Translations under genes and position numbers: made by a program
Shown: one piece after another, positions 43,038 through 58,115 of the stretch
Numbering within the stretch: position 1 is the first letter of the stretch
Layout: every line of letters begins with the position of its first letter
Assembly (NCBI RefSeq): GCF_000971255.1
Contig: NZ_BBMC01000005.1
Span: forward strand, 186,001-250,000
DNA length: 64,000 nt
Reading direction: 5' to 3'
From: Demequina rhizosphaerae
Lineage (GTDB): Bacteria; Actinomycetota; Actinomycetes; Actinomycetales; Demequinaceae
Notes under the pieces: generated by a model
Databases searched by the model: none
Told to the model about the DNA's origin: nothing
What the model saw: the letters and a program-made list of their open reading frames with translations, nothing else

Positions 43038-43991
43038 ATGGCGCCCATGGCGCCGCTCCCCTCCCGCGTGATCCGCGCGGTCGCGGCCGCCGGGGCGGCC
43101 ACGGTGCTGCTCACCGCGTGCTCGTGGCGCGTCGAGACGCCGCCGATCCCGTCACGCACCCCCACGCCCACCGTGGTCCTGCGCGACGAGGCGGCGCTGC
43201 GCGAGCAGGCCGTCGTCGACGCCGCGGACTCCACCGACCTCGGCGTGATCGAGTCCGGGCTCGCTCCCGAGCGGCTCGCGGCCCTGGGCGGCGTCTACGT
43301 CGAGTACCCGTCCGCCTCCCCCGAGCCCGACACGACCGTCTCCGCGGCGCCGTCGCTCGACGCGGCGGTCCAGGACGCGATCGACGAGGCGCTCGCCGCC
43401 GCCGACGCCGCCACCGAGGACGATCCGGGGCTCGCCGCGATGCTGCGCTCGATCGCGCTGTCCCACTCGCTCGCGGTCGCCGCACCCGGCGTCGCCGGGG
43501 CCGCGCCCGCCGAGCGCGCCATGCCCGGCGTCGGGGACGAGGCGACGGGCCCGTGGACGCCGACGGAGGACACCGCGGTCGACGGGAACACCCTCGCCGC
43601 GCTCGCCGTGGCGCACGACCGCGCCTCGTTCGCGTACGAGGTGGCGGCCGCGCGCGCGAGCGGCAAGGAGCGCACGCGGGCGCTCACGCGCTCGCGCCTG
43701 CACGATGCGCGCGCCGAGGCGCTGCTGGCCCTCCCGGGCGTCGACGACCTGCGGGAGCCGCTGTACGAAGTGCCGCCCGCGGGCACCGAGACGCGCAAGG
43801 CCCGTGCCGCCACCGAGCGGGCGGTCGAGGTCGAGCTCGCGGAGTCCTACGCCGCGCTGATCGACGGCGCGGCGCCCGACGACGTGCCGTGGGTGCTCAA
43901 CGCCTCGTACGACGCGTGGATGCGCGCCGCCGCGCTCGCCGGCTTCGACCTGGGCTCGCTCCCGGCGCTGCCGGGGCTCAGCGTCTCCTGA
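43038..43991 (+). CDS. DUF4439-type ferritin-like lipoprotein
   Basis: A 317-residue protein with a signal peptide ending in a lipobox-like LLTAC (C28). A proline/threonine-rich stretch is followed by alanine-rich helices; the C-terminal half (AHDRASFAYEVAAARASG to WMRAAALAGF) has the four-helix pattern of DUF4439, a ferritin-like domain often encoded between rimP and proS in actinobacteria. Several ATGs (43035, 43038, 43047) are possible starts; none has a clear ribosome-binding site. It converges with proS. Confidence 0.75.
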   Translation: MAPMAPLPSRVIRAVAAAGAATVLLTACSWRVETPPIPSRTPTPTVVLRDEAALREQAVVDAADSTDLGVIESGLAPERLAALGGVYVEYPSASPEPDTTVSAAPSLDAAVQDAIDEALAAADAATEDDPGLAAMLRSIALSHSLAVAAPGVAGAAPAERAMPGVGDEATGPWTPTEDTAVDGNTLAALAVAHDRASFAYEVAAARASGKERTRALTRSRLHDARAEALLALPGVDDLREPLYEVPPAGTETRKARAATERAVEVELAESYAALIDGAAPDDVPWVLNASYDAWMRAAALAGFDLGSLPALPGLSVS

Positions 43992-44020
43992 CCCGAGCAC
44001 CCGAGCACCTCTCCACACAC

Positions 44021-44140: not shown

Positions 44141-45943
44141 TCAGCCGTCCAGCGCCTCCCGGACGCGGGCGACCACGGCGGCCGCCGCATCGTCCACCGG
44201 CAGCGCCTCGCTCGTGCCCGCCGCGCGGACCTTGAGCTCGACGGTGCCCTCCGCGAGGCCGCGGCCGACCACGAGGATGAACGGGGCGCCGATGAGCTCG
44301 GCGTCCTTGAACTTCACGCCGGGCGAGACCTTGAAGCGGTCGTCGTAGCAGACCTCGACGCCCGCGGCCTCGAGCTCCGCGGCCAGGCCGCCGGCGGCCT
44401 CGAAGACCGCCGCGTCCTTGCCTGTCGCGACCACGTGCACCTGGTACGGCGCGACCTGGATGGGCCAGGACAGGCCCAGCTCGTCGTGGTTGTTCTCCGC
44501 GAGCAGCGCGACGGCGCGGGTGACGCCGATGCCGTACGAGCCCATGGTGACGACCTGCTGCTTGCCGTTCTCGTCGAGCACCCGCAGGTCGAGCGCCTCG
44601 GCGTACTTGCGGCCCAGCTGGAAGATGTGGCCGATCTCGACGCCGCGCGCGAGCTCGAGCGGACCCGAGCCGTCGGGGGCCTCGTCGCCGTCGCGCACGT
44701 CGGCGGCCTCGATGGTGCCGTCGCCCACGAAGTCGCGGCCCATGACGAGGTCGAAGACGTGCTTGCCGTGCTCGTTGGCGCCGGTGATCCAGCGGGTGCC
44801 GGGGACGATGCGCGGGTCGAGCATGTACGGGATGGTCGCGTCGTCCTCGGAGAGGAACGCCACCTCCGCCGGGCGGGCCTGCGGGCCGAGCACGCCGGGG
44901 CCGATGTAGCCCTTGACCAGCTCGGGGTGGGTCTTGAGGTCGTCCTCGTTCGCGGCTTCGACCGTCGCCGGGGCGAGCGCCGCCTCGAGGCGGGTCATGT
45001 CGACGTCGCGGTCGCCGGGCACGCCGATGACGAGCAGCCCGCGCTCGCCCTCGGGGTTGGTCGCGGCGATCACCACGTTCTTGAGGGTGTCCGCGGCGGT
45101 CCAGGCGCGGTCCTCGCGCGGGTGGTGGGCGTTGGCGGAGGCGACCAGCGTGTCGATCGTCGGGGTGTCGGGAGTGTCCTCGACGTGCGCGGCGGGCGCA
45201 TCGGCCCAGTCGATCGCGGCGGGCGCCGGGGTGGTGACGGCCTCGACGTTGGCGGCGTAGCCGCCGGGCGAGCGCACGAAGGTGTCCTCGCCGACCTCGG
45301 TGGGCGACAGGAACTCCTCCGACCTCGAGCCGCCCATCGCGCCCGACTGCGCCTGCACGATCACGTACTCGAGGCCCAGGCGGTCGAAGATGCGGATGTA
45401 GGCCGCGCGCTGCGCCGCGTACGACGCGTCGAGGCCCTCGTCCGAGATGTCGAAGCTGTACGAGTCCTTCATGATGAACTCGCGGCCGCGCAGCAGGCCC
45501 GCACGGGGACGCGCCTCGTCGCGGTACTTCGTCTGGATCTGGTAGATCGTCAGCGGCAGGTCCTTGTAGCTGCTGTAGAGGTCCTTGACCAGCAGCGTGA
45601 ACATCTCCTCGTGCGTGGGCGCGAGCAGGTAGTCGCCGCCCTTGCGGTCGTGGAGGCGGAAGAGGTTGGGGCCGTACTCGGTCCAGCGGCCGGTCGCCTC
45701 GTAGGGCTCGCGCGGCAGCAGCGCCGGGAAGTGCACCTCCTGGCCGCCGGCGGCGTCCATCTCCTCGCGGACGATCGCCTCGACCTTCGCGAGCACCTTG
45801 AGGCCCAGCGGCAGCCAGGTGTAGATGCCGGGGGCGGCGCGGCGGATGTAGCCGGCGCGGACGAGCAGCTGGTGCGACGCGACCTCGGCGTCGGCGGGGT
45901 TCTCGCGCAGGGTGCGCAGGAAGAGCGTGGACATGCGAAGCAT
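44141..45943 (-). CDS. proS: Prolyl-tRNA synthetase
   Basis: A 600-residue class II synthetase of the bacterial type with an editing insertion. Motif 1 to 3 regions are visible ([39 protein letters not shown], then [16 protein letters not shown]), with the INS editing domain between about 225 and 385 and the C-terminal anticodon-binding domain. ATG at 45943, alternative ATG at 45934. It lies 52 bp downstream of the first SLH gene; in related genomes the neighbour is the GNAT gene now found beyond the SLH cluster. Confidence 0.97.
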
Positions 45944-45995
45944 GGGGTCAAGGGTATCGGGACCGGGGCACGATGCGGTGCGGGTATCCGTCCTG

Positions 45996-47393
45996 TCACC
46001 AGGGCGTGCGCACCACGAAGCCCCCGACCCAGTGCTCGTAGCGGTAGAGCACGGTCGCAAGCTGGCGGCGCAGCGTCGGCTCGTTCGGCCGGAAGGTCCC
46101 GTCGGAGAAGCCCGAGACGATGTCGAGCTGCCCGAGCCACGCGATCGCGCGCGAGCCGCCGTCACCGCATTCGACGTCGGTGAACGAGTAGGCAGGGCAT
46201 CCGCCATCAGGCAAGGGACCAGGAACGGTGAGGACCGCCGGTCGACCCGCATACCTGTACAGCAGCTTGGCGACCATGCGCCTCGTGACGGTGCGGTTCG
46301 GCTTGAAGCTCCCGTCGTCGTAGCCCGAGGCGATCCCCGTCTGGTGGAGCCAGACCATCGCACGGTACCCGCCGTCGCCGGGCTCGATGTCGGTGAACGG
46401 AGACTCCTCGGGAAGGTCGACCTCGGGGCGACCGGCGTGCCGGTACAGCAGCTTCGCGAGGTTGCGGCGGGTCACCGTTCCTCGCGGTTCGAAGGTGCCG
46501 TCGTCGAAGCCGGACACGATCCCGACCCCGCCGGCCCAGTTGATCGCGTGGAAGCCCTTGGATGCCCCGCGCACGTCCGTGAAGCAGGTGAACGGGATCC
46601 ACTCGTCAGGGTGGTCGTTGCGCAGGCCCGCGACCGACACCGCGCGGGTGTGCGTGCCCGTCGGTGCCGCGGCGCCGCCGTACCAGCAGTCCTCACCCTC
46701 GTAGGCGGTCCAGTCCTCGCCTGTCACGAGCTCCTCGCGGGCGGCGCGCAGCAGGTACGGCTCATCCGTCTCGAGCTCGTCGAAGACCAGCGTGGTTCCC
46801 GGCGAGGCGCAGTCGACGGCGGCGGGCACGGACTCCGTCGCTCCCTCGAATCCCGCCCACGGGTACGCCGCGACGCACACGATCTCGGCGACCCCCGGCA
46901 CGGGACGCAGCGCAGGCAGCGCGACATCGACACGCAGCACGGTGAACGGCCGGGTGGTCGAGGTCGGCGCCGTCGCCTCGTCGTCGTCGACGCCGACGAC
47001 GAGGCGCGCGGGGACGGCGACGACGCCGCCGTCGGTCACCCACGATCCTGCAAGGCCTGGAATGCCCGTCACCCTCACGCGGTACTCGCCGACCGGGACG
47101 CCGTCGAACCGGTAGGCGCCGTCCTCGACGGCGGTCGACGCCACGTACTCCCCGCTCCATCTGTAGAGGTCGGCGCGGCCGTCCTCGACCACGCCGATGA
47201 TGAGGCGAGCGGCACCCGTGATGCTGGCGGCGCCGGAGAGGGCGATCCCCCCGCTCGGCGCGTCGACCGCGACCTCGACAGCCGTGTCGGTCGCAGGAGC
47301 GTCCTCGGCCGCCGCTGCCGGCGCGCCGATCGCGATCGCCACTGCGCTCAGGACGACGGCGAGCACGGCCGTGTGGCGTGAGGCTCGTGTCAT
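45996..47393 (-). CDS. Secreted S-layer-homology protein (SLH1)
   Basis: A 465-residue exported protein: signal peptide (to about residue 29), a small beta domain ([19 protein letters not shown]), an unnamed module with paired cysteines (CVAAY, later DC, then [10 protein letters not shown] and DWTAY), and three SLH repeats from about residue 275 to the end. The SLH repeats carry SGFDDGTF and [11 protein letters not shown]-type motifs and presumably bind a cell-wall polymer. The central module is shared with SLH2 and SLH3. It starts 24 bp after the SLH2 stop, so the two are probably co-transcribed. Confidence 0.88.
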
Positions 47394-47417
47394 GGGTGTC
47401 TCTCCTCGAGGCTCGGA

Positions 47418-50400
47418 TCAGCCGAGCGTGTAGCGGTAGAGGAACGTCGCGATCTGGCGACGGATGACGTCCTGCTCCGGACGGAACGTGCCGTCCGAGA
47501 AGCCCGAGGCGATCCCCGTCTCGGCCATCCATGCCATCGCGCGGTAGCCGCCCGATCGCGGGGTGAGGTCCTTGTAGGGCGATCTCGCCGGCACCTCGAA
47601 GTCCGGCCGGCCCGCGAAGCGGTAGAGGAACTTCGCGAGGTTACGGCGCGAGACCTCGTCGTTCGGCCGGAAGGAGCCGTCGTCGAAGCCCGACGCGATG
47701 CCCGCCTGGTAGAGCCACACCATCGCGCGGTAGCCGCCGTCGCTCGGCGACACGTCGGCGAAGGGCGACTCCTCGGGCAGGTCGACGTCCGGGCGCCCCG
47801 CGTAGCGGTAGAGCAGCTTCGCGAGGTTGCGCCGCGTCACGGACTCGCGCGGACGGAAGGTGCCGTCCGAGTAGCCGGAGGCGATGTGCGTGCCGCCCAG
47901 CCACGAGATCTCGGAGAACGCCTTCGACCCGCCGTTCACGTCGGTGTAGTAGGCCATGCCGAGCCAGTACCCGCTCATGTCCTCACCGACCGAGATGACG
48001 CGGGCCTTGCCGCTCCACGGCCCATCGGCGTTGCCGAGCCAGTAGTCGGGTCCCGTGTACGAGGTCCAGTCGGTGTCGACCGTGAGCTCCTCCGGCACGA
48101 CCCGAAGCAGATACGCGCGACCGTCCTGGAGGTTGGGCAGGATGCGCACCAGCTCCGGATCCCCGCAATCGACGACGACCGGCGTGCTCGTGGACTCGGA
48201 TTCGAAGCGATCAGCACGATAGGCGGCGATGCACAGCCAGCGGTCGTCCCACTCCGCCTTGCCCGCGGCGCTGACGTAGAGCGGGGCCATGTACTCGAGC
48301 GGCACACGGCCGGCGGTGAGGGTGACCGGGGTGGACTCCGACACCACGAACCTGCCGGGCGCGTGGTTCCCGATCACTTCTCCGTACGTCGCCCACCGAG
48401 GGCCGATGTCGGTTCCGCCGCTGACGAGCACCTTGTACTCGCCCTCCGGCACACCCTCGAACGAGTACGCGCCGCTCTCGACCGCCGTGGTGCCGAGCGG
48501 CTCGCCGGCCCACGAGTAGAGGGTTGCCGTGGTGCCGCCGCCCCACACGGTCCCGGTGATCGTCGCGCCGAGGTCGAGCACGAAGTCCGCTTCCGCGGTT
48601 CCTCCTTCGAACACGACCGGGGAGCCTGCCCCGTCGTCGCCGAAGTAGCCCTCCACCGCCCCGTCGAAGCCGGCGAAGCGGAGCCAGTACGCGCCGGGCT
48701 CGACGATCTCCAGGTGGAACCGCTCATCTGCTCCCACGCACGACTCGGCGGCGAGGGCTCCGGAATCGGCATAGGCCGTGACGCAGCCTCCCGTCACGAC
48801 GCCGCCGCGCGCGAGGACGTGACCGCGCAGTCCCGTGCCATCGCTCAGGGTGTACGCGATCGCGACGGTCTCGCCGGCCGCCACCCAGGTCGTCTCCGCG
48901 TCGCCTCGCACCAGACCGCCCCAGTACTGGTCAGGTGCCCCGTCGAAGCCGAGGAACGCCAGCGCGAATCGGCCGTCGTACATCGGCACCCGGTACGTAC
49001 CGCCGTCTCCCGCACAGTCCCGACCGGCCTCGACCCACTCGTCGGTGTACGCGACGAGGCAGCCGCCCGCGGCCGGCAGCCCTCCAGGACCCGCCAGCGC
49101 GACGGACACGGCTCCCGCCGCCCTCAGGTCGAGGTCGATCGTCCTCACCTCGCCGGTCGCCGCCGAGATGGGGTAGGCGTCGCTTCCCGTCCACAGCCAC
49201 GCATCGGCTCCGACGGCACGGAAGAGCAGCCTCGCGCCGGTGTCCGGCACCGGCACGGAGTAGCCGGGCTCGCCGGGAGCCGTGCAGCCGGTCGCGAAGA
49301 CCTCGTCGCCGACGTGGACGTCGACGCAGGCGGAGGTGGCTCCCGGCACGGCCGTGTAGTCGATCGCACCTGCGACCGTGCCGTACGCGCCGATCTCGTA
49401 TGCCCGCGCCACGTCGCGGCCCTGATCGATCGTGACGAAGCTCATCTGCGTCGTGTCGTTCGCGGTCGAGAAGCCCGTGAAACGAAGGTGCGAGTTGCTC
49501 TTGAGGTCGCGACGGACGTCGAGAACGTAGCCGTCCGCTCCGTCGCAGTCGCGGGCGACCTCCTCGGACCCGGACTTGAGAGCCACACACCCGTCCGCGA
49601 CCGGCTCGCCCTCGCTCGTCACGTCGACCGTGAAGCGGCCACCGAATCGGATGTCGACCTCGGTCGTAGTTCCCGTGGTCGTCGCGACCTGGACCGAGTC
49701 CGTGAGCCCCGTGTGCGTCGACAGGCCCCACCACCCCTCCCAGTAGCCGCAGACCGGGTCGGCCGATTCGGCCGTCACGCAGAGCGCATACGTGGCCTCG
49801 GGGAGGCCGTCGATCGTGAACTCGTCCCCGATGTCGCCGCACGCCTCACCCTCGACGATGTAGGTGCCGGCGCCCGGACCCACCGACATGAACGCCCGCA
49901 CGCAGGCCCGCTCCCCCACGACGGTGTCGGGGGCGACGATGGTGCCGTGGATCGCTGAGTCGGGTGCGAACTGCGCGTCGACACCGGTACGGAGCTCGGT
50001 GGGCACGCTCGCGATCTGCGTCGATGTGACGGATGCCTGGCCGGCCTCCGCCGGGACGAACCTCAGCAGCGCCGATCCGGACTCGGCGATGCTCCAGTCG
50101 CGGATCACGTACCTCCCGTCCGTGCCGACCGTCACCTCCTCGCGCAGCGGCTTCGGGCTGGAGTGCCAGTAGTAGCGCTGCACGGTCGCACCTGCCGCGG
50201 GTGTCCCATCCGACCCGAGGACCGTCCCGGTGGTCGCCCCGTACGGCAGCAGCTCGACCGCGACCGCGGTCGTCGCGTCCGCGACGACGTCGAACGAGTC
50301 GGCGTCGGCGTGCGCGTCCTCCCACGTCGACCACTGGTCGGGGGCGTCTGTGAAGCCGGTGTACTCCAGCCGGTAGGCGCCGGGCGCGAGCCCGTCGATC

Positions 50401-50639
50401 ACGTAGGCGCCGTCGCCGGACTCGCAGACGGTCGCGACCGCGGTCTCCGCGTCTTCGTCCGTGTACGCCGCGACGCAACCGCCGACCGCATCGTCCCCGG
50501 TCTCCCACAACGTGGCCGTGGCCTCGATGGATCCGGTCGGCTCGACCGCGCCGGCGGCCGACGGCAGCCCCACCCCCGCCACGATCGCGGTGAGCAGCGC
50601 GGCGATCGCCCGCGCGCGTCGTCGGGTCGTCTGCGGCAT
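47418..50639 (-). CDS. Large secreted S-layer-homology protein with Cys-paired beta repeats (SLH2)
   Basis: A 1073-residue exported protein. After the signal peptide (cleavage near residue 30) come about seven beta-sandwich-like repeats of roughly 100 residues, each with a C-[VIL]-x-A[YF]-like strand, a second Cys 10-25 residues later and often a YxLxFxGF segment, resembling carboxypeptidase-regulatory-like domains. The last repeat is the module shared with SLH1 and SLH3 (WLCIAAY, VDC, YLLRVVPEEL). Three SLH repeats fill about residues 900-1073. The ATG at 50639 gives a convincing signal peptide. It is the longest of the four and probably forms a rod-like surface stalk. Confidence 0.87.
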   Translation of the reverse strand: MPQTTRRRARAIAALLTAIVAGVGLPSAAGAVEPTGSIEATATLWETGDDAVGGCVAAYTDEDAETAVATVCESGDGAYVIDGLAPGAYRLEYTGFTDAPDQWSTWEDAHADADSFDVVADATTAVAVELLPYGATTGTVLGSDGTPAAGATVQRYYWHSSPKPLREEVTVGTDGRYVIRDWSIAESGSALLRFVPAEAGQASVTSTQIASVPTELRTGVDAQFAPDSAIHGTIVAPDTVVGERACVRAFMSVGPGAGTYIVEGEACGDIGDEFTIDGLPEATYALCVTAESADPVCGYWEGWWGLSTHTGLTDSVQVATTTGTTTEVDIRFGGRFTVDVTSEGEPVADGCVALKSGSEEVARDCDGADGYVLDVRRDLKSNSHLRFTGFSTANDTTQMSFVTIDQGRDVARAYEIGAYGTVAGAIDYTAVPGATSACVDVHVGDEVFATGCTAPGEPGYSVPVPDTGARLLFRAVGADAWLWTGSDAYPISAATGEVRTIDLDLRAAGAVSVALAGPGGLPAAGGCLVAYTDEWVEAGRDCAGDGGTYRVPMYDGRFALAFLGFDGAPDQYWGGLVRGDAETTWVAAGETVAIAYTLSDGTGLRGHVLARGGVVTGGCVTAYADSGALAAESCVGADERFHLEIVEPGAYWLRFAGFDGAVEGYFGDDGAGSPVVFEGGTAEADFVLDLGATITGTVWGGGTTATLYSWAGEPLGTTAVESGAYSFEGVPEGEYKVLVSGGTDIGPRWATYGEVIGNHAPGRFVVSESTPVTLTAGRVPLEYMAPLYVSAAGKAEWDDRWLCIAAYRADRFESESTSTPVVVDCGDPELVRILPNLQDGRAYLLRVVPEELTVDTDWTSYTGPDYWLGNADGPWSGKARVISVGEDMSGYWLGMAYYTDVNGGSKAFSEISWLGGTHIASGYSDGTFRPRESVTRRNLAKLLYRYAGRPDVDLPEESPFADVSPSDGGYRAMVWLYQAGIASGFDDGSFRPNDEVSRRNLAKFLYRFAGRPDFEVPARSPYKDLTPRSGGYRAMAWMAETGIASGFSDGTFRPEQDVIRRQIATFLYRYTLG

Positions 50640-50686
50640 CCGTTCCCCCCCTGCCGCGACCGCCCTGTGCGGCCGCCGGTGCGCGG

Positions 50687-50697
50687 CGCATCGTCCC
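50687..50697 (-). repeat. Intergenic copy of the GGGACGATGCG motif
   Basis: Exact copy in the leader of the SLH2 gene, 47 bp before its start codon. Confidence 0.7.
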
Positions 50698-50712
50698 GCC
50701 GCACGTGCCCGC

Positions 50713-50740
50713 ACGCTACCAGGAGACGTCACTCTGTGAC
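50713..50740 (-). promoter_or_regulatory. Candidate SLH2 promoter with an inverted repeat
   Basis: Reading the minus strand, TAGCGT (50718 down to 50713) is a plausible actinobacterial -10 box. Just upstream, in the -35 region and spacer, is GTCAC-AGA-GTGAC (50740 down to 50728), a 5-bp inverted repeat with a 3-bp spacer that could be an operator. No clear TTGACA box is present. Confidence 0.4.
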
Positions 50741-50809
50741 ATTGCCTGCTCGGACCCCTACCAGGAAGGACACGCCGACATTCGGGACGGAAGGGACGGC
50801 GGACGCACG

Positions 50810-50843
50810 ACGGCCGCCGGTCCCCGCGGGGACCGGCGGCCGT
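50810..50843 (-). terminator. Hairpin terminator after SLH3
   Basis: A perfect 16-bp inverted repeat (50810-50825 with 50828-50843), 14 bp past the SLH3 stop and ahead of the SLH2 promoter region. Confidence 0.8.
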
Positions 50844-50857
50844 GGTGTGCGCCGCGC

Positions 50858-52243
50858 CTACAGGTACGGGAAGCGGTAGAGGAACGTCGCCATCTGGCGG
50901 CGGATGACGTCCTGGTTCGGACGGATGGTGCCGTCCGAGAAGCCGGATGCGATCTCCTCGTCGACCATGAACTTCAGCGCGCGGTAGCCGCCCGCGGTCT
51001 TCTTCACGTCCTTGAAGGGCGACTTCTCGTCCATGTCGACGTCGGGGCGCCCCGCGTAGCGGTAGAGGAACTTCGCCATGTTCTGACGGCTCACGGTCTT
51101 GTTCGGCTTGAACGAGCCGTCGGCGTAGCCCGACGCGATCTCCGCCTCGTAGAGCCACACCATCGCGCGATAGCCGCCGTCGCCGGGCTCGAGGTCCGTG
51201 AAGGGCGACTCCTCCGGCATCTCGAAGTCCGGGCGGCCGGCGTAGCGGTAGAGCAGCTTGGCCATGTTGCGGCGGGTCACCGACTCGCGCGGACGGAACG
51301 TGTCGTCGTCGTAGCCCGAGGCGATCTGGAACGCGGCGAGCCAGGAGATCTCGTCGAAGGCCTTCGCGCCGCCCTTGACGTCGCCGAAGTAGGCGACGAA
51401 GTGCCAGTCGGGGCCGGTGGTGGTGTCCGTGATGAAGACGAGCGCTCCGGGCGTCCACGGGTCGGCGACGTTCCCGAACCAGAACTCGTCACCCTCGTAG
51501 TCCATCCACTCGTCGGCCGTGGCGAGCTCGGCCGGCACGATGCGGAGGAGGTACTCGCTCGACTTGTCGAGCTCGTCGATGAAGGTGGGGTTGCCCTCGA
51601 CGGCGCAGTCCGTCGACACGGGCGCCGAGATCGAGGCGTCCCAGAAGTCCTCGGCGTCGTACGCGGCGAGGCAGAGCCGATCGGTGCTCCACGAGCCCTT
51701 GCCCGCGACGGTGAAGTACACCCAGGGCTCGTCGCCGAGCGTCGCCTCGTCCGCGACGATCTCCGCCGGGGACTCGGGCGACACGACGAACTTCGCCGGG
51801 CCCAGGCCGTCGGAGCCGTCGAGCTCAGCCCACTGCGAGCCGTGGTCGTCGTACGTGCCGACGAGCACCTTGTACTCGCCCTCCGCCACGTCGGCGAAGG
51901 TGTACGCGCCCTCGACGATGTCGACGTCGCCCAGGTACTCGCCGTCCCAGCTGAACAGCTCGGCCCAGCCCTCGGCCGGCTCGCCGTCGACCACGACGGT
52001 GCCCGTGATCGACACGGTCTCGGTGACGGACAGCGTGCGCGGCGCGGTGGCCGAGGCGCCGGTCTCGGCGCCGTAGCACCAGACGTCGGCGAGGTGCTCG
52101 TGGCCCTCGGTGACGGCGCTGCACGATGCGCCGGTCACGGTGCCGGCCGCGGCGCCCGCGGCCGCGGGGAGCCCCGCGGCAGCCAGGAGCGCCAGGACCG
52201 TGGCGGCGGCGCCGCGCGCGAGCAGGGACGAAGACGACTGCAT
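50858..52243 (-). CDS. Secreted S-layer-homology protein (SLH3)
   Basis: A 461-residue exported protein: signal peptide ending near AGAAAG, a beta domain (AELFSWDGEYLGDVDIVEGAYTF) like that in SLH1 and SLH2, the shared Cys-paired module (RLCLAAY, TDC, YLLRIVPAEL, EWMDYEG), and three SLH repeats from about residue 285 to the C-terminus. It has its own terminator, and the 254-bp region upstream suggests its own promoter (TAGCGT at 52325 down to 52320 is a candidate -10). Confidence 0.88.
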   Translation of the reverse strand: MQSSSSLLARGAAATVLALLAAAGLPAAAGAAAGTVTGASCSAVTEGHEHLADVWCYGAETGASATAPRTLSVTETVSITGTVVVDGEPAEGWAELFSWDGEYLGDVDIVEGAYTFADVAEGEYKVLVGTYDDHGSQWAELDGSDGLGPAKFVVSPESPAEIVADEATLGDEPWVYFTVAGKGSWSTDRLCLAAYDAEDFWDASISAPVSTDCAVEGNPTFIDELDKSSEYLLRIVPAELATADEWMDYEGDEFWFGNVADPWTPGALVFITDTTTGPDWHFVAYFGDVKGGAKAFDEISWLAAFQIASGYDDDTFRPRESVTRRNMAKLLYRYAGRPDFEMPEESPFTDLEPGDGGYRAMVWLYEAEIASGYADGSFKPNKTVSRQNMAKFLYRYAGRPDVDMDEKSPFKDVKKTAGGYRALKFMVDEEIASGFSDGTIRPNQDVIRRQMATFLYRFPYL

Positions 52244-52441
52244 GGATGACCCCCATGACGGGGCCGATCCACACGTCCCCGCCGCGCGCCGAGCCTCCGA
52301 TGGCGGGCGCCTCGCGGGCACGCTAGCAGGCGCGATGGGTGCGGCCCGGGTCACGACACGCGATGGTTTCGTCACACCGTGCGCTTGTGCACGGGGAGGT
52401 CGGGCGGCGCTGCGGAGAGGCCCACCCTCCCCCGGAGACGG

Positions 52442-52481
52442 CTCGACCGCCGCCGGCCCGGTGGGGCCGACGGCGGTCGAG
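52442..52481 (-). terminator. Hairpin terminator after SLH4
   Basis: A perfect 11-bp inverted repeat (52442-52452 with 52471-52481) with extra GGCCC/GGGCC pairing in the loop, 16 bp past the SLH4 stop. Confidence 0.78.
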
Positions 52482-52497
52482 GGTCAGCGGTGCTCCG

Positions 52498-54534
52498 CTA
52501 CAGGCTCGAGAACCGGTAGATGAAGGTCGCCATCTGGCGGCGGATCGTGTCCTGACCCGGACGGAAGGTGCCGTCCGAGAAGCCGGTGGCGATCCCCGTC
52601 TCGTCCAGCCACGCCATCGCGCGGTAGCCGCCGGTCGAGGTCGTGACGTCCGAGAACGGCGAGGTGGCGGGCACCTCGAAGGCCGGACGGTCGGCGAAGC
52701 GGTAGAGGAACTTCGCCATGTTGCGACGCGTCACGGTCTTGTTCGGCTGGAACGTGCCGTCCGAGTAGCCCGAGGCGATCTCCGCCTCGTGCAGCCACAC
52801 CATGGCGCGGTAGCCGCCGTCACCCTGCTCGATGTCCGAGAAGGGCGAGGTCTCCGGGAGCTCGAAGTCCGGGCGACCGGCGAGGCGGTACAGGAACTTC
52901 GCCATGTTGCGACGCGTCACGGACTCGTAGGGACGGAAGGTGCGGTCCTCGAAGCCCGAGGCGATGCCCTGCTCGTGGAGCCAGGTGATCTCGGCGAACG
53001 CCTTCGCGCCCAGCGGCACGTCGGTGAAGTACACGGTCGGGACGCAGCCCTCGGTCGGGCGCTCGGCGTTGATGAGCACGTTGTCGACCGGCAGGGCGTC
53101 GAAGCCGTTCGTCACGATCCAGCCGTAGCGGTTGCCGCCCACGGTGCCGTTGATCGTGTCCTTGCCGTTCGAGCGGGTCCAGGTCTTGAGCACGTCGCCC
53201 GAGGCGTCCGCGACCGAGATGTCGACCGAGAGCACGCCGTCCACGCTCGAGAAGTCGTGGCGCACGGTGTACCAGCCGGACTCGGTGATCGTCAGCGTGT
53301 CACCGGTCAGCGGCGCGACGTCGACGGCCTTGAAGCCCGCGTTGTTCGACGCGCCAAGCGTCCACGAGCCCTCGCCCGCCGACTGCGCGTGAAGGATGAA
53401 GTCGCGACGGTGGTTGCCGTCGGTGCCGTTGGTGGCCACCGACCAGTCGAACTGGTTCAGCGTGCCACCGGTCGACACCGCAGCGTCGAGGTAGAAGTCG
53501 GCGCTGGTGAACCAGCCGCCCGCCGGGAACGCGTCGGAGTAGCCGCCGAACTTCGTCACCTGGTACTCGTAGTCGTCGTCGTCCAGGTTCTGGCCAGCGA
53601 CCGCGTAGTAGCAGCCCGCAGCGGCGGTGATGCCGGTGGTGCCGTTCTTGACCGGCGTCACGCCGGAGACAGCCTCGAAGCTGGCCTCGGTCTCGAAGCC
53701 GTACACGGCCGCGTCGATCGCCGGCACCGCGGACGCCTTGACGGTGAGCATCGGCGAGTAGGGGGACCACTCGCTCGTCGAGCGAAGGACGTCGATCGGG
53801 TCGCCGTCGTACATCGCGGCGTACGACGAGTCCACGACGATCGAGTCGCCGTCGACGTCCGCGCCGATGGCGGGCGCGTCCTGCGCGAGGCTGACGTTCA
53901 GGCTGTCGTACGGGCCGCGGTCCGCGATCTCGCCGAAGCGGCTCGTCGGGTACTTCACGGTGACGATGACCTCGTCCGGGAGCGCGACGGTCGAGTCGAA
54001 GGGCACGGTGGCCGTGAAGGCGACGCCGTTGTGGCAGGTGCCCGTCTCGGAGTCGTACCACTTCGTCGGAGTCGTCGTGCAGTTCACGGCGTCGGCCGAC
54101 GGTCGGAACGGCACGGCCACGGTCTCGGTCGCGGTCGCGAGCAGGTCGCCCGGCTCGCCCGCGGCGTCGACGCCGTAGACGTTGACCGTCACGGGGTGGT
54201 CGAAGGTGGCGCCGGGCGTCGTGACGCAGTCCGCGCCCGAGCCGGTCTCGCACGACCAGTTGGTCATGCCGACCTCGACGGAGTCGAGCAGCCGCTCGTC
54301 GCCGCCGAGGACGATGCGATCGCCGAGCTCACGCGTCGAGGTGGCGGTGAAGCCGATGCTCGGGTGCGACGGAGCCGTCGCGGCGTTGTCGAAGACGACG
54401 GCGCTGGTGGCCGGCGCCTCGGTGTCGTCGGACGTCGCGCCGGCCGCCGTGGCGGTCAGGACGCTCGCGCCCAGCGCCGCGAGCATCGTGCCCGCGACGG
54501 CGCGCGAGGCGCGCCAGGAATGGGTGTTCCCCAT
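52498..54534 (-). CDS. Secreted S-layer-homology protein with a different N-terminal region (SLH4)
   Basis: A 678-residue exported protein: signal peptide to about residue 33, a beta-rich domain with paired cysteines (about 40-190, SIGFTAT, NWSCETG and GTCHNGVAF), a middle region resembling bacterial surface beta-sandwich domains (about 270-490, AAGCYYAVAG, WTLGASNNAG, GWYTVRHDF), and three SLH repeats from about 505. It does not contain the YLLR module of SLH1-3. It is monocistronic: a terminator follows and 158 bp with an inverted repeat precede it. Confidence 0.87.
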   Translation of the reverse strand: MGNTHSWRASRAVAGTMLAALGASVLTATAAGATSDDTEAPATSAVVFDNAATAPSHPSIGFTATSTRELGDRIVLGGDERLLDSVEVGMTNWSCETGSGADCVTTPGATFDHPVTVNVYGVDAAGEPGDLLATATETVAVPFRPSADAVNCTTTPTKWYDSETGTCHNGVAFTATVPFDSTVALPDEVIVTVKYPTSRFGEIADRGPYDSLNVSLAQDAPAIGADVDGDSIVVDSSYAAMYDGDPIDVLRSTSEWSPYSPMLTVKASAVPAIDAAVYGFETEASFEAVSGVTPVKNGTTGITAAAGCYYAVAGQNLDDDDYEYQVTKFGGYSDAFPAGGWFTSADFYLDAAVSTGGTLNQFDWSVATNGTDGNHRRDFILHAQSAGEGSWTLGASNNAGFKAVDVAPLTGDTLTITESGWYTVRHDFSSVDGVLSVDISVADASGDVLKTWTRSNGKDTINGTVGGNRYGWIVTNGFDALPVDNVLINAERPTEGCVPTVYFTDVPLGAKAFAEITWLHEQGIASGFEDRTFRPYESVTRRNMAKFLYRLAGRPDFELPETSPFSDIEQGDGGYRAMVWLHEAEIASGYSDGTFQPNKTVTRRNMAKFLYRFADRPAFEVPATSPFSDVTTSTGGYRAMAWLDETGIATGFSDGTFRPGQDTIRRQMATFIYRFSSL

Positions 54535-54652
54535 GAGATCCCCTCAGATCGATGCGCGCGCACGCACGATCGGGGTTCCCGTGTGCGTCGCTGCGCGCGA
54601 GTAGCGAGAGAAAGTCTAGGGAGGCCCACCGACAGTAATCGCTCCAAAGTGC

Positions 54653-54669
54653 CGATAACGTCGTTACCG
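54653..54669. promoter_or_regulatory. Inverted repeat upstream of SLH4
   Basis: TAACG-T-CGTTA (54656-54666) is a 5-bp inverted repeat with one central base, and flanking CG/CG bases extend the symmetry to 54653-54669. It lies about 120 bp before the SLH4 start, upstream of a TAGACT sequence (54618 down to 54613) that could be a -10 box, so it may be an operator. Confidence 0.35.
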
Positions 54670-54692
54670 TGACGAACGCCACACGGCGGGCG

Positions 54693-55609
54693 TCACATCA
54701 TGACGGTCGCGAACGTCCCGACCTCGCGGAAGCCCACCGCGTCGTACGCGCGGATGGCCACCGGGTTGAAGTCGTTGACGTAGAGGCTCACCGTCGGGGC
54801 GAGCTGCGCGCGCACCGCGTCGATCACGGCGCCGAGCCCCGCGCGGGCGAGCCCGCGTCCGCGCAGGTCCGGATGCACCCACACGCCCTGGAGCTGCGCC
54901 ACTCCCCCGCCCAGCGCGCCCACCTCGGCCTTGAACACCACCTGTCGTCGGCCGTCGACGGTGCCCATCTGCACGTACGAGCGTCCGGCGCGCACGAGGT
55001 AGCGCAGGCGCTCCTCGTAGCCGGCACGCCCGTGGCGCATCGGGTCGTAGCCCACCTCGCCGATGAACATGTGGACGCACGCGGGCAGCAGCAGGTCGTA
55101 GTCGTCGAGGTCCGCGCGCCTCACGGCCTCGAGGTCGAGGCCCGAGGCGTCGATGCCGGCGACGCGGCGCGGCTCGTGGTCGATCGCCATCGACACCTGC
55201 CGGGCCCGCACCTCGCGGGCGGGCCCCCACCAGGGCTCGACGCGGCCCCACAGGTCGAGCGTGACGCCGGCCGGGCCCACGAGCGCCGCGGGGCGCGTGA
55301 GGCGCGCGATCGCCGCCGCCGCGACCTCGGCGCGCAGGGAGTCCTCGTCCTCGCCGTCGCCATCGGGCAGCACGGGCGAGAGGTTGGCGCCGTTCCACAC
55401 GAGGCCCACGAGGGTCGAGTGCAGGCCCGAGCGCCGGCGGACGCCCCACAGGGAGCCCGTCATGATGCCCGAGGCCCGGGCCGTCTCGAGGTGCATGAGC
55501 GGCACCACGTGCGCGACGGGGTCCCGGCGCGCGAGCGCGATGGCCGTGTCGAGATCACGCCGCTGCAGGGGCGCCAGCGTGTGCTGGGAGCGCCTGAGCA
55601 GCGAGTCCG

Positions 55610-55613
<4 letters not shown>
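54693..55613 (-). CDS. GNAT acetyltransferase with DUF4081-type N-terminus
   Basis: A 306-residue protein: an N-terminal region of the kind called DUF4081 ([17 protein letters not shown]) and a C-terminal GNAT domain with the acetyl-CoA motif [20 protein letters not shown] and closing [18 protein letters not shown]. This gene is commonly found next to ispG in actinobacteria. ATG at 55613 overlaps the ispG stop (ATGA). The substrate is unknown. Confidence 0.88.
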
Positions 55614-56764
<1,151 letters not shown>

Positions 56765-56801
56765 GTTGTCAGTATCTCCCAAGGTCGGTGCGGTACCGCC
56801 G

Positions 56802-58115
56802 TCACACCACGCTGACGGGCGCGACGATGTCCGCATAGATGAGGATGACGCCCATGGCGAGAAGCAGGGCGAAGACGCCGTAGGCGAGGGGCATCATGCG
56901 GGCCACGTCGACGGGCGCCGGCCGCGGCAGGCCGCGCAGGCGCGCCCAGCCGTTCTTGATGCCCTGCCAGAAGGCGGAGGCGATGTGCCCACCGTCCAGG
57001 GGGACGAGCGGGATCATGTTGAAGGCGAAGAGCGCGAGGTTGAGGCTGCCCAGGAGCATGAGCATGTCGGTCACCTTGTCGGCGATCGAGTAGCCCTGGA
57101 CGTCCGCGCTGGAGATCTCGCCGGCGACGCGGCCGACGCCCACGAGCCCCATGACGGAGTCCGTGGTGCGCTCCTCGAGCCCGACCGACGCGCGCGCCAC
57201 GTGGTAGACGTTCTCCGGCAGGTGCCAGATGACGTCCGCCGTCGCTCCGAGCACGTAGCCCGTGTAGTCGAGGCCCGCGCCGATCCCCTGCCGCTGCGTC
57301 TCGGTGGCCGGGGCGATGCCCATGTAGCCGACCTCCTCGGTGACGACCGCGCCGTCGGCGTCGGTCACCACCGCGCCGGAGTCGTCGTACACGGCGCGCT
57401 CGCGCAGCGCGGGCGTGAGGGGGATCTCGACGGCGTCGCCGTCGCGCTGGACGGTGAGGACGACCTCCTCGCCGGGCCGAGCCGCGACGTAGTCGGTGAA
57501 GGTCTCCCAGTCGGAGACCGGCGTGCCGTCGACCGCGGTGACGGTGTCGCCCGCCTCGATGCCCGCCTGGGAGGCAGGCGAGGCCGGGTCATCCGGAGCG
57601 CAGTCCGACGCGCCCGCGGCGGGCACGCACGCCGTCACCTGCGACACGGTGAGCGTCGGGTGGCCGGGGGTGCCGACGAGGAAGAGGATGCCGGTGAAGA
57701 TCAGCACGGCGATGACGAGGTTGACGAAGGGGCCGCCGAACATCACGATCGCCTTGCGCCACCAGGAGAGGTGGTAGAAGGCGCGGTGGTCCTCGCCCGG
57801 CTGGATCTCCTCGACGGAGGCCTCGCGCGTGTCCGCGATGAGCTGGGCGACGCGGCCGGTGCCGCTCACGGGCTTGACCGCCTCGGCCGGCGGGATCATC
57901 CCGACGAGCTTGACGTAGCCGCCCAGCGGGATGGCCTTGACGCCGTACTCGGTCTCCTTGCCGCGCCGCGACCACAGGGTGGGCCCGAAGCCCACGAAGT
58001 ACTCGCTCACCCGCACGCCGAACTTCTTCGCAGGGATCATGTGCCCGAGCTCGTGGAGCGCGATCGAGACGAGCAGCCCCACGAGCAGGACGATCCACCC
58101 GATGACCTCAGCCAT
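56802..58115 (-). CDS. rip: Site-2 (M50) intramembrane metalloprotease, RseP/Rip1 type
   Basis: A 437-residue membrane protease. The zinc motif HELGH is at residues 21-25 in the first helix, a PDZ domain lies at about 165-270, and the second active-site motif [13 protein letters not shown] is near 385 with the catalytic aspartate. It cleaves membrane anchors, typically anti-sigma factors, within the bilayer. It is flanked by dxr and ispG, the usual actinobacterial order. ATG at 58115, 5 bp from the dxr stop. Confidence 0.93.

Follow-up and report, generated by a model that had tools for sequence, protein, structure and literature searches.

We put at roughly 70% the probability that a block of four consecutive SLH genes in a Demequina genome is one version of a cargo site present across the genus, which carries modular heads displayed on the cell wall by anchors that are kept alike within each genome. 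The conclusion that this is a real variable surface-protein locus is well supported; its parts are ordinary, and what is unusual is the split between heads and anchors. The new point, also well supported by the sequence comparisons, is that heads are common to different genomes and anchors alike within a genome, implying separate histories for the two.

The block lies in the window, the 64,000-nucleotide stretch of DNA that was analysed, which sits inside contig C11 of a 3.03 Mb genome. The original prediction had described four minus-strand reading frames between proS and the DUF4081-GNAT and ispG genes, and their coordinates, strand and lengths were exact to the base (Table 1); a profile search identified the flanking genes as named. 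A Pfam profile search likewise recovered the three C-terminal SLH domains ascribed to each protein (E 6e-28 to 1e-31), the four whole proteins scoring 97-109 bits against PF00395 (curated cut-off 20.8) in three stretches each, and a signal-peptide-like N-terminus can be read from the sequence of every one. Twelve of the 13 SLH matches in the source genome fall inside the block; the remaining one is weak and lies on contig C9.

Table 1. Features of the SLH block and its borders (window coordinates)
Feature	Position	Strand	Description
proS	44141..45943	-	downstream boundary of the variable interval
TACCCT, -10 box of proS	45951..45956	-	7 nt before the ATG; equivalent box in 42/42 genus loci
SLH1, 465 aa	45996..47393	-	signal-like N-terminus; head akin to SLH2 and SLH3 heads; three C-terminal SLH domains
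SLH2, 1073 aa	47418..50639	-	CarboxypepD_reg/SdrD_B-like repeats, followed by a head of SLH3 type (about residues 693-897) and three SLH domains
15-bp-stem hairpin 3' of SLH3	50810..50843	-	-58.1 kcal/mol, z -7.0 against shuffles; terminator-like, without T-run
SLH3, 461 aa	50858..52243	-	head at residues 76-285 (75-173 CnaB/transthyretin-like); SLH trimer at 286-461, Sap-like in the model
17-bp-stem hairpin 3' of SLH4	52443..52480	-	-58.0 kcal/mol, z -4.0 against shuffles; terminator-like, without T-run
SLH4, 678 aa	52498..54534	-	beta-rich head, unrelated to the other three but with homologues in further Demequina genomes; three SLH domains
DUF4081-GNAT gene	54696..55607	-	upstream boundary; spaced 6-20 bp from ispG in almost every genome
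ispG (GcpE)	55610..56836	-	profile search

The N-terminal regions had been predicted to differ throughout, and this stood only in part. It holds for the SLH4 head and for the additional repeats of SLH2, but SLH1, SLH2 and SLH3 have heads, some 200 residues long, that are homologous. SLH2 and SLH3 align at 53% over 387 aa, and SLH1 and SLH3 at 43% over 412 aa, heads included; taken without their anchors, the three heads are 30-39% alike. The heads of these three proteins are paralogues of one another, and SLH4 can be aligned with its block neighbours in the SLH part only (69%). A G010 protein (L042:13443-15812) carries the SLH4-type head twice, with likenesses of about 78% and 81% to the head in the window.

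In a predicted model of SLH3 (mean pLDDT 79), residues 284-461 match the SLH trimer of Bacillus anthracis Sap (3PYW; Z 22.0, rmsd 2.4, 174 residues aligned) and adopt its three-pronged fold. For residues 75-173 the likeness is to CnaB/transthyretin-like domains, as in pilins and in adhesins of the MSCRAMM type (8BDW; Z 10.4, rmsd 2.4, 89 aligned), a match that, at a Z near 10 and for a small beta sandwich, is evidence of predicted fold and not of function. The fold search matched at once, whereas phmmer with 199 aa of SLH3 (encoded by bases 51455-50858) found no match among PDB sequences. Domain content and predicted fold support the earlier claim that different heads are displayed on one kind of wall anchor. 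For the SLH4 head, a concanavalin-like sandwich was considered from sequence; the model is too weak for naming a fold (mean pLDDT 57).

The surroundings of the block were compared in 44 Demequina genomes, the window's (G000) and 43 others, 42 of which gave readable loci with both GNAT and proS. The two genes are co-oriented in all 42, and also in 19 of 19 loci from outside the genus (one from a sister genus, the other 18 from further families of Micrococcales), so the GNAT-proS order is as familiar as had been supposed. Within the genus, the gap between them ranges from 33 bp to 11,913 bp, against 6-20 bp between ispG and GNAT in nearly all of the same loci. SLH genes occupy 19 of the 42 intervals, one to four in each, and the maximum of four is the window's. 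The gap is 155 bp or less in ten loci, and the SLH-free intervals are either empty or hold other cargo, often envelope-related. A variable insertion between proS and GNAT, as originally predicted, is therefore well supported: the four genes are not at this site in all relatives, and their set is unique among the 42 loci. The nearest relative, Demequina sp. SYSU T00192 (G010; 97% alike in GNAT), has two SLH genes there, and G024, the outgroup of the window's clade in the tree, has 59 bp. On the genus tree, SLH presence and absence require at least ten changes, a minimum in which gain and loss are indistinguishable.

In the outside-genus sample the gap runs from 62 bp to 9.3 kb, and none of the 19 loci has SLH genes in the interval. 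The GNAT-proS order is therefore old, and the SLH cargo is, within this sample, confined to Demequina. Two of these loci (L239 of G116 and L252 of G119, from other Micrococcales families) have gaps of 9.0 and 9.3 kb without SLH genes, and from them variability of the site may extend beyond Demequina.

S-layer cassette switching in Clostridioides difficile offers one likeness, recombination there replacing surface-protein cargo between fixed flanks; that cassette, however, has a CWB2 anchor where ours is SLH, switches within a species, and concerns one major protein. Conserved flanks and differing cargo across the 42 loci also liken the site to a replacement flexible genomic island. In aquatic bacteria, the cargo of such islands encodes exposed cell structures, and exchange by homologous recombination has been proposed (PMC4033161); the cargo here differs in being small surface-protein genes. 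The window contains no tRNA that could be the insertion site. Because the base composition of the block is not distinct from that of its flanks, there is no sign of very recent foreign origin.

Other cargo falls into several groups, some of them named from one scanned member plus clustering. A set of histidine kinase, LuxR-type regulator and 226-aa protein is found in four genomes, a VanY carboxypeptidase in five and a GDPD-type phosphodiesterase in two; glycosyltransferases and a FkbM methyltransferase also occur. Two SLH genes of G035 flank a PF04230 pyruvyltransferase and a glycosyltransferase. G025 carries the regulator set where its sister G029 has an empty site, a contrast that fits exchange or loss. 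Four large, unnamed proteins of the cargo were considered as defence genes, a reading that was dropped when PADLOC gave no match.

How the site can vary without harm to proS is suggested by its transcription signals. In each of the 42 genus loci a TANNNT box precedes the proS ATG by 6-7 nt, whereas 1.4% of the other ATGs in this DNA have one; in Actinobacteria, TANNNT before an ATG is known as a leaderless promoter form (PMC3160421, PMC3898074). Most likely proS starts its own transcript and upstream cargo does not cut it off, so that such cargo would be tolerated. Inside the block, the separate terminators predicted after SLH3 and SLH4 were borne out as strong hairpins but not as consensus terminators: neither hairpin has a T-run, and a T-run consensus scan returned no terminator-like site at either, with one chance-level terminator overall. 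A folding scan found no strong hairpin in the 24-bp SLH2-SLH1 gap or the 52-bp SLH1-proS gap. The proposed SLH2-SLH1 operon is likely, cotranscription being judged by spacing. Because hairpins follow SLH4 and SLH3 and none follows SLH2 or SLH1, three transcription units (SLH4, SLH3 and SLH2-SLH1) are likely, and read-through from SLH1 into proS is possible. Separate control of the surface proteins and their alternate display, as first proposed, would suit these hairpin-bounded units, but no inverted repeats that could serve switching were found and three of the heads are paralogous. A sigma-70 consensus scan gave no promoters, and a k-mer search of upstream sequence turned up CTGAGGG, which is probably a ribosome-binding stretch. 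On the far side of proS, between it and rimP, a plus-strand reading frame (43118-44000) has a lipoprotein-like start ending in LLTAC and is probably a small lipoprotein.

The central evidence comes from splitting each SLH protein of the site at its first SLH domain into a head and an anchor. Among 11 genes with both a paralogue in the same genome and a clearly better head match elsewhere, the anchor was nearer the paralogue in 10, the 11 coming from five genomes and not being independent events. SLH4 shows such a split: its head is 62-81% like heads in G010 and D. maris (G015), and its anchor is 61-69% like its neighbours' as against 43% like that of G015. Among the ten, G028_1 has a head 74% like one in G020, with an anchor 61% like that of G020 but 74% like that of G028_2, whose head is unrelated; and G015_1 has a head 68% like one in G010, with an anchor 45% like that of G010 against 59-63% within its own genome. 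The nearest anchor was in the same genome in 10 of 13 cases, a figure reached by 1 of 2000 shuffles. In the maximum-likelihood anchor tree the three G015 anchors form one clade (99/95), and an AU test rejected a single anchor clade for the G000, G010 and G015 genes of SLH4 type, with a p-AU of 0.00035 that is not from a blind choice, the group having been set by head likeness but after sight of an earlier anchor tree.

These data bear on the possibility of plain tandem duplication and divergence, in which one SLH gene was copied in place and its heads then changed fast and its anchors slowly, with no exchange. Such a history would explain why SLH1, SLH2 and SLH3 have both head and anchor in common and why anchors within G000 are 60-69% alike, and for those three genes it is possible. 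For SLH4 it is already refuted by the crossing of head and anchor, the head being unrelated to those of its neighbours; the same crossing in G028 and G015, together with the AU test, also speaks against it, and as an account of the block we consider it quite improbable.

Alternatively, selection alone might have acted on genes acquired separately, their anchors converging on the host's wall ligand with no exchange of DNA. The SLH1 anchor speaks for this: its third-base identity to its paralogues, 0.48-0.50 against 0.51 expected, is at the random level, yet the anchor is 61-65% alike. Because of that random level, conversion of the SLH1 anchor would be either old or absent. Among the anchors of SLH4, SLH3 and SLH2, however, third-base identity at conserved residues is 0.63-0.68 against the 0.51 expected at random, pointing to shared DNA ancestry and supporting exchange among these three; moreover, in-genome likeness extends over the whole trimer and is not confined to the pocket residues. 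Convergence by itself is likewise quite improbable.

Homogenisation of anchors within a genome, as the preferred reading has it, is not universal, because G000 and G010, the closest pair, have one orthologous SLH gene in common and the second G010 anchor follows its head. The G000 anchors are not strictly one clade either, a D. iriomotensis (G008) anchor and one G010 anchor lying inside. Between the SLH4 anchor and its G010 counterpart, 31% of residues differ despite a third-base identity of 0.79, close to the 0.77 of GNAT (a protein 97% alike), and on these figures the SLH4 anchor protein changes unusually fast.

A phase-variable S-layer locus, where a single protein is made at any moment and inversion or recombination does the switching, as at sap of Campylobacter fetus, is very unlikely, for although tandem genes with alike anchors in separate hairpin-bounded units would suit it, there are 0 inverted repeat pairs of at least 30 nt in 45900-54700, all four genes run in one direction with a start of their own, two of them cotranscribed by spacing, and the SLH1-3 heads are small and CnaB-like. 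The sap locus of C. fetus, a Gram-negative bacterium, encodes LPS-bound proteins with an N-terminal anchor; it is like ours in its several tandem surface-protein genes and in a type common within the strain, and differs in that our block has no sign of inversion. The sap type goes with adjoining polysaccharide genes (PMC4943207).

From sequence, phylogeny and predicted fold we infer wall display, ligand matching and a mechanism of exchange for the modular cargo site. The ispG-GNAT pair ends a fixed unit and proS has a leaderless-type -10 box of its own; between the two, relatives have either no cargo, or SLH genes, or other genes, many of which serve the envelope. Recombination in the conserved flanks would bring about gain, loss and replacement of cargo. 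Conversion among the tandem copies might keep the anchors alike, or incoming heads might be grafted onto the resident anchor, and selection probably matches all anchors to the strain's own wall polymer. Each protein combines a secreted-type head with an SLH trimer at the C-terminus, in which the pocket residues of known SLH anchors are retained. The putative function is to present adhesin- or stalk-like heads on the wall in a modular and non-covalent way, the genes forming the three transcription units.

SLH anchoring is usually tied to a wall polymer pyruvylated by CsaB and, to our knowledge, has been little studied in Actinobacteria. Over the 81 SLH domains encoded at the site across the genus, the pocket is retained: Arg43 in 80, Gly29 in 75 and Tyr, Phe or Trp at position 13 in 72. 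It is with these residues that Sap and SpaA bind the pyruvylated wall-polymer sugar (PMC6081394, from which the numbering is taken). The likeness to these proteins of B. anthracis and Paenibacillus alvei thus covers the three SLH domains, the fold, Arg43 and Gly29, with the aromatic residue mostly kept; a difference is that the motif here is mostly TRRN, TRRN/SRRN and IRRQ in place of TRAE, and that Trp13 is mostly Tyr or Phe. D. maris (L043) has NRAQ in most domains, unlike the TRRN of the window's genome, and no PF04230 match.

A further difference from Sap and SpaA concerns the pyruvyltransferase. Three diverged PF04230 genes are present in G000, L009 on contig C14 and the pair L010 and L011 within about 2 kb on C7. 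Two were scanned for a CsaB-grade enzyme (TIGR03609, cut-off 213.1 bits) and scored 61.3 and 25.5 bits; the third, outside that scan, scores 38.9 bits to PF04230. A diverged enzyme could do the pyruvylation step. PF04230 was absent from D. gelatinilytica (G006), G015, G022, G023 and G028, each with at least three SLH matches, an absence that is not proof because the search's first look was loose and some of the genomes are drafts. Across genomes, SLH and PF04230 counts correlate (Spearman 0.56), and their presence has no significant association (Fisher p 0.16 when any SLH match counts, 0.09 when at least three are required). Another SLH ligand is known, polyaminated peptidoglycan in Negativicutes (PMC10628300). 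We offer as tentative, and on balance unlikely, the idea that anchors are strain-specific keys to their own wall ligand, which in some species would be made without any known pyruvyltransferase family and so be different or differently made.

The locus is a natural series of many related species with one fixed site, heads common across species and anchors alike within each, in which co-evolution of anchor and wall ligand becomes directly testable; the five genomes in which at least three SLH matches go with no PF04230 gene can serve to test for an unknown ligand. G022 has 26 SLH matches spread over its chromosome (L092-L095) and no PF04230 match. A second SLH locus, lacking in the window's genome, was seen in G003, G005, G017 and G030 (L088, L089, L091 and L105), where SLH genes in opposite orientation adjoin one another and a PF04230 pyruvyltransferase, with a score of about 92-108 bits, lies some 10-18 kb away.
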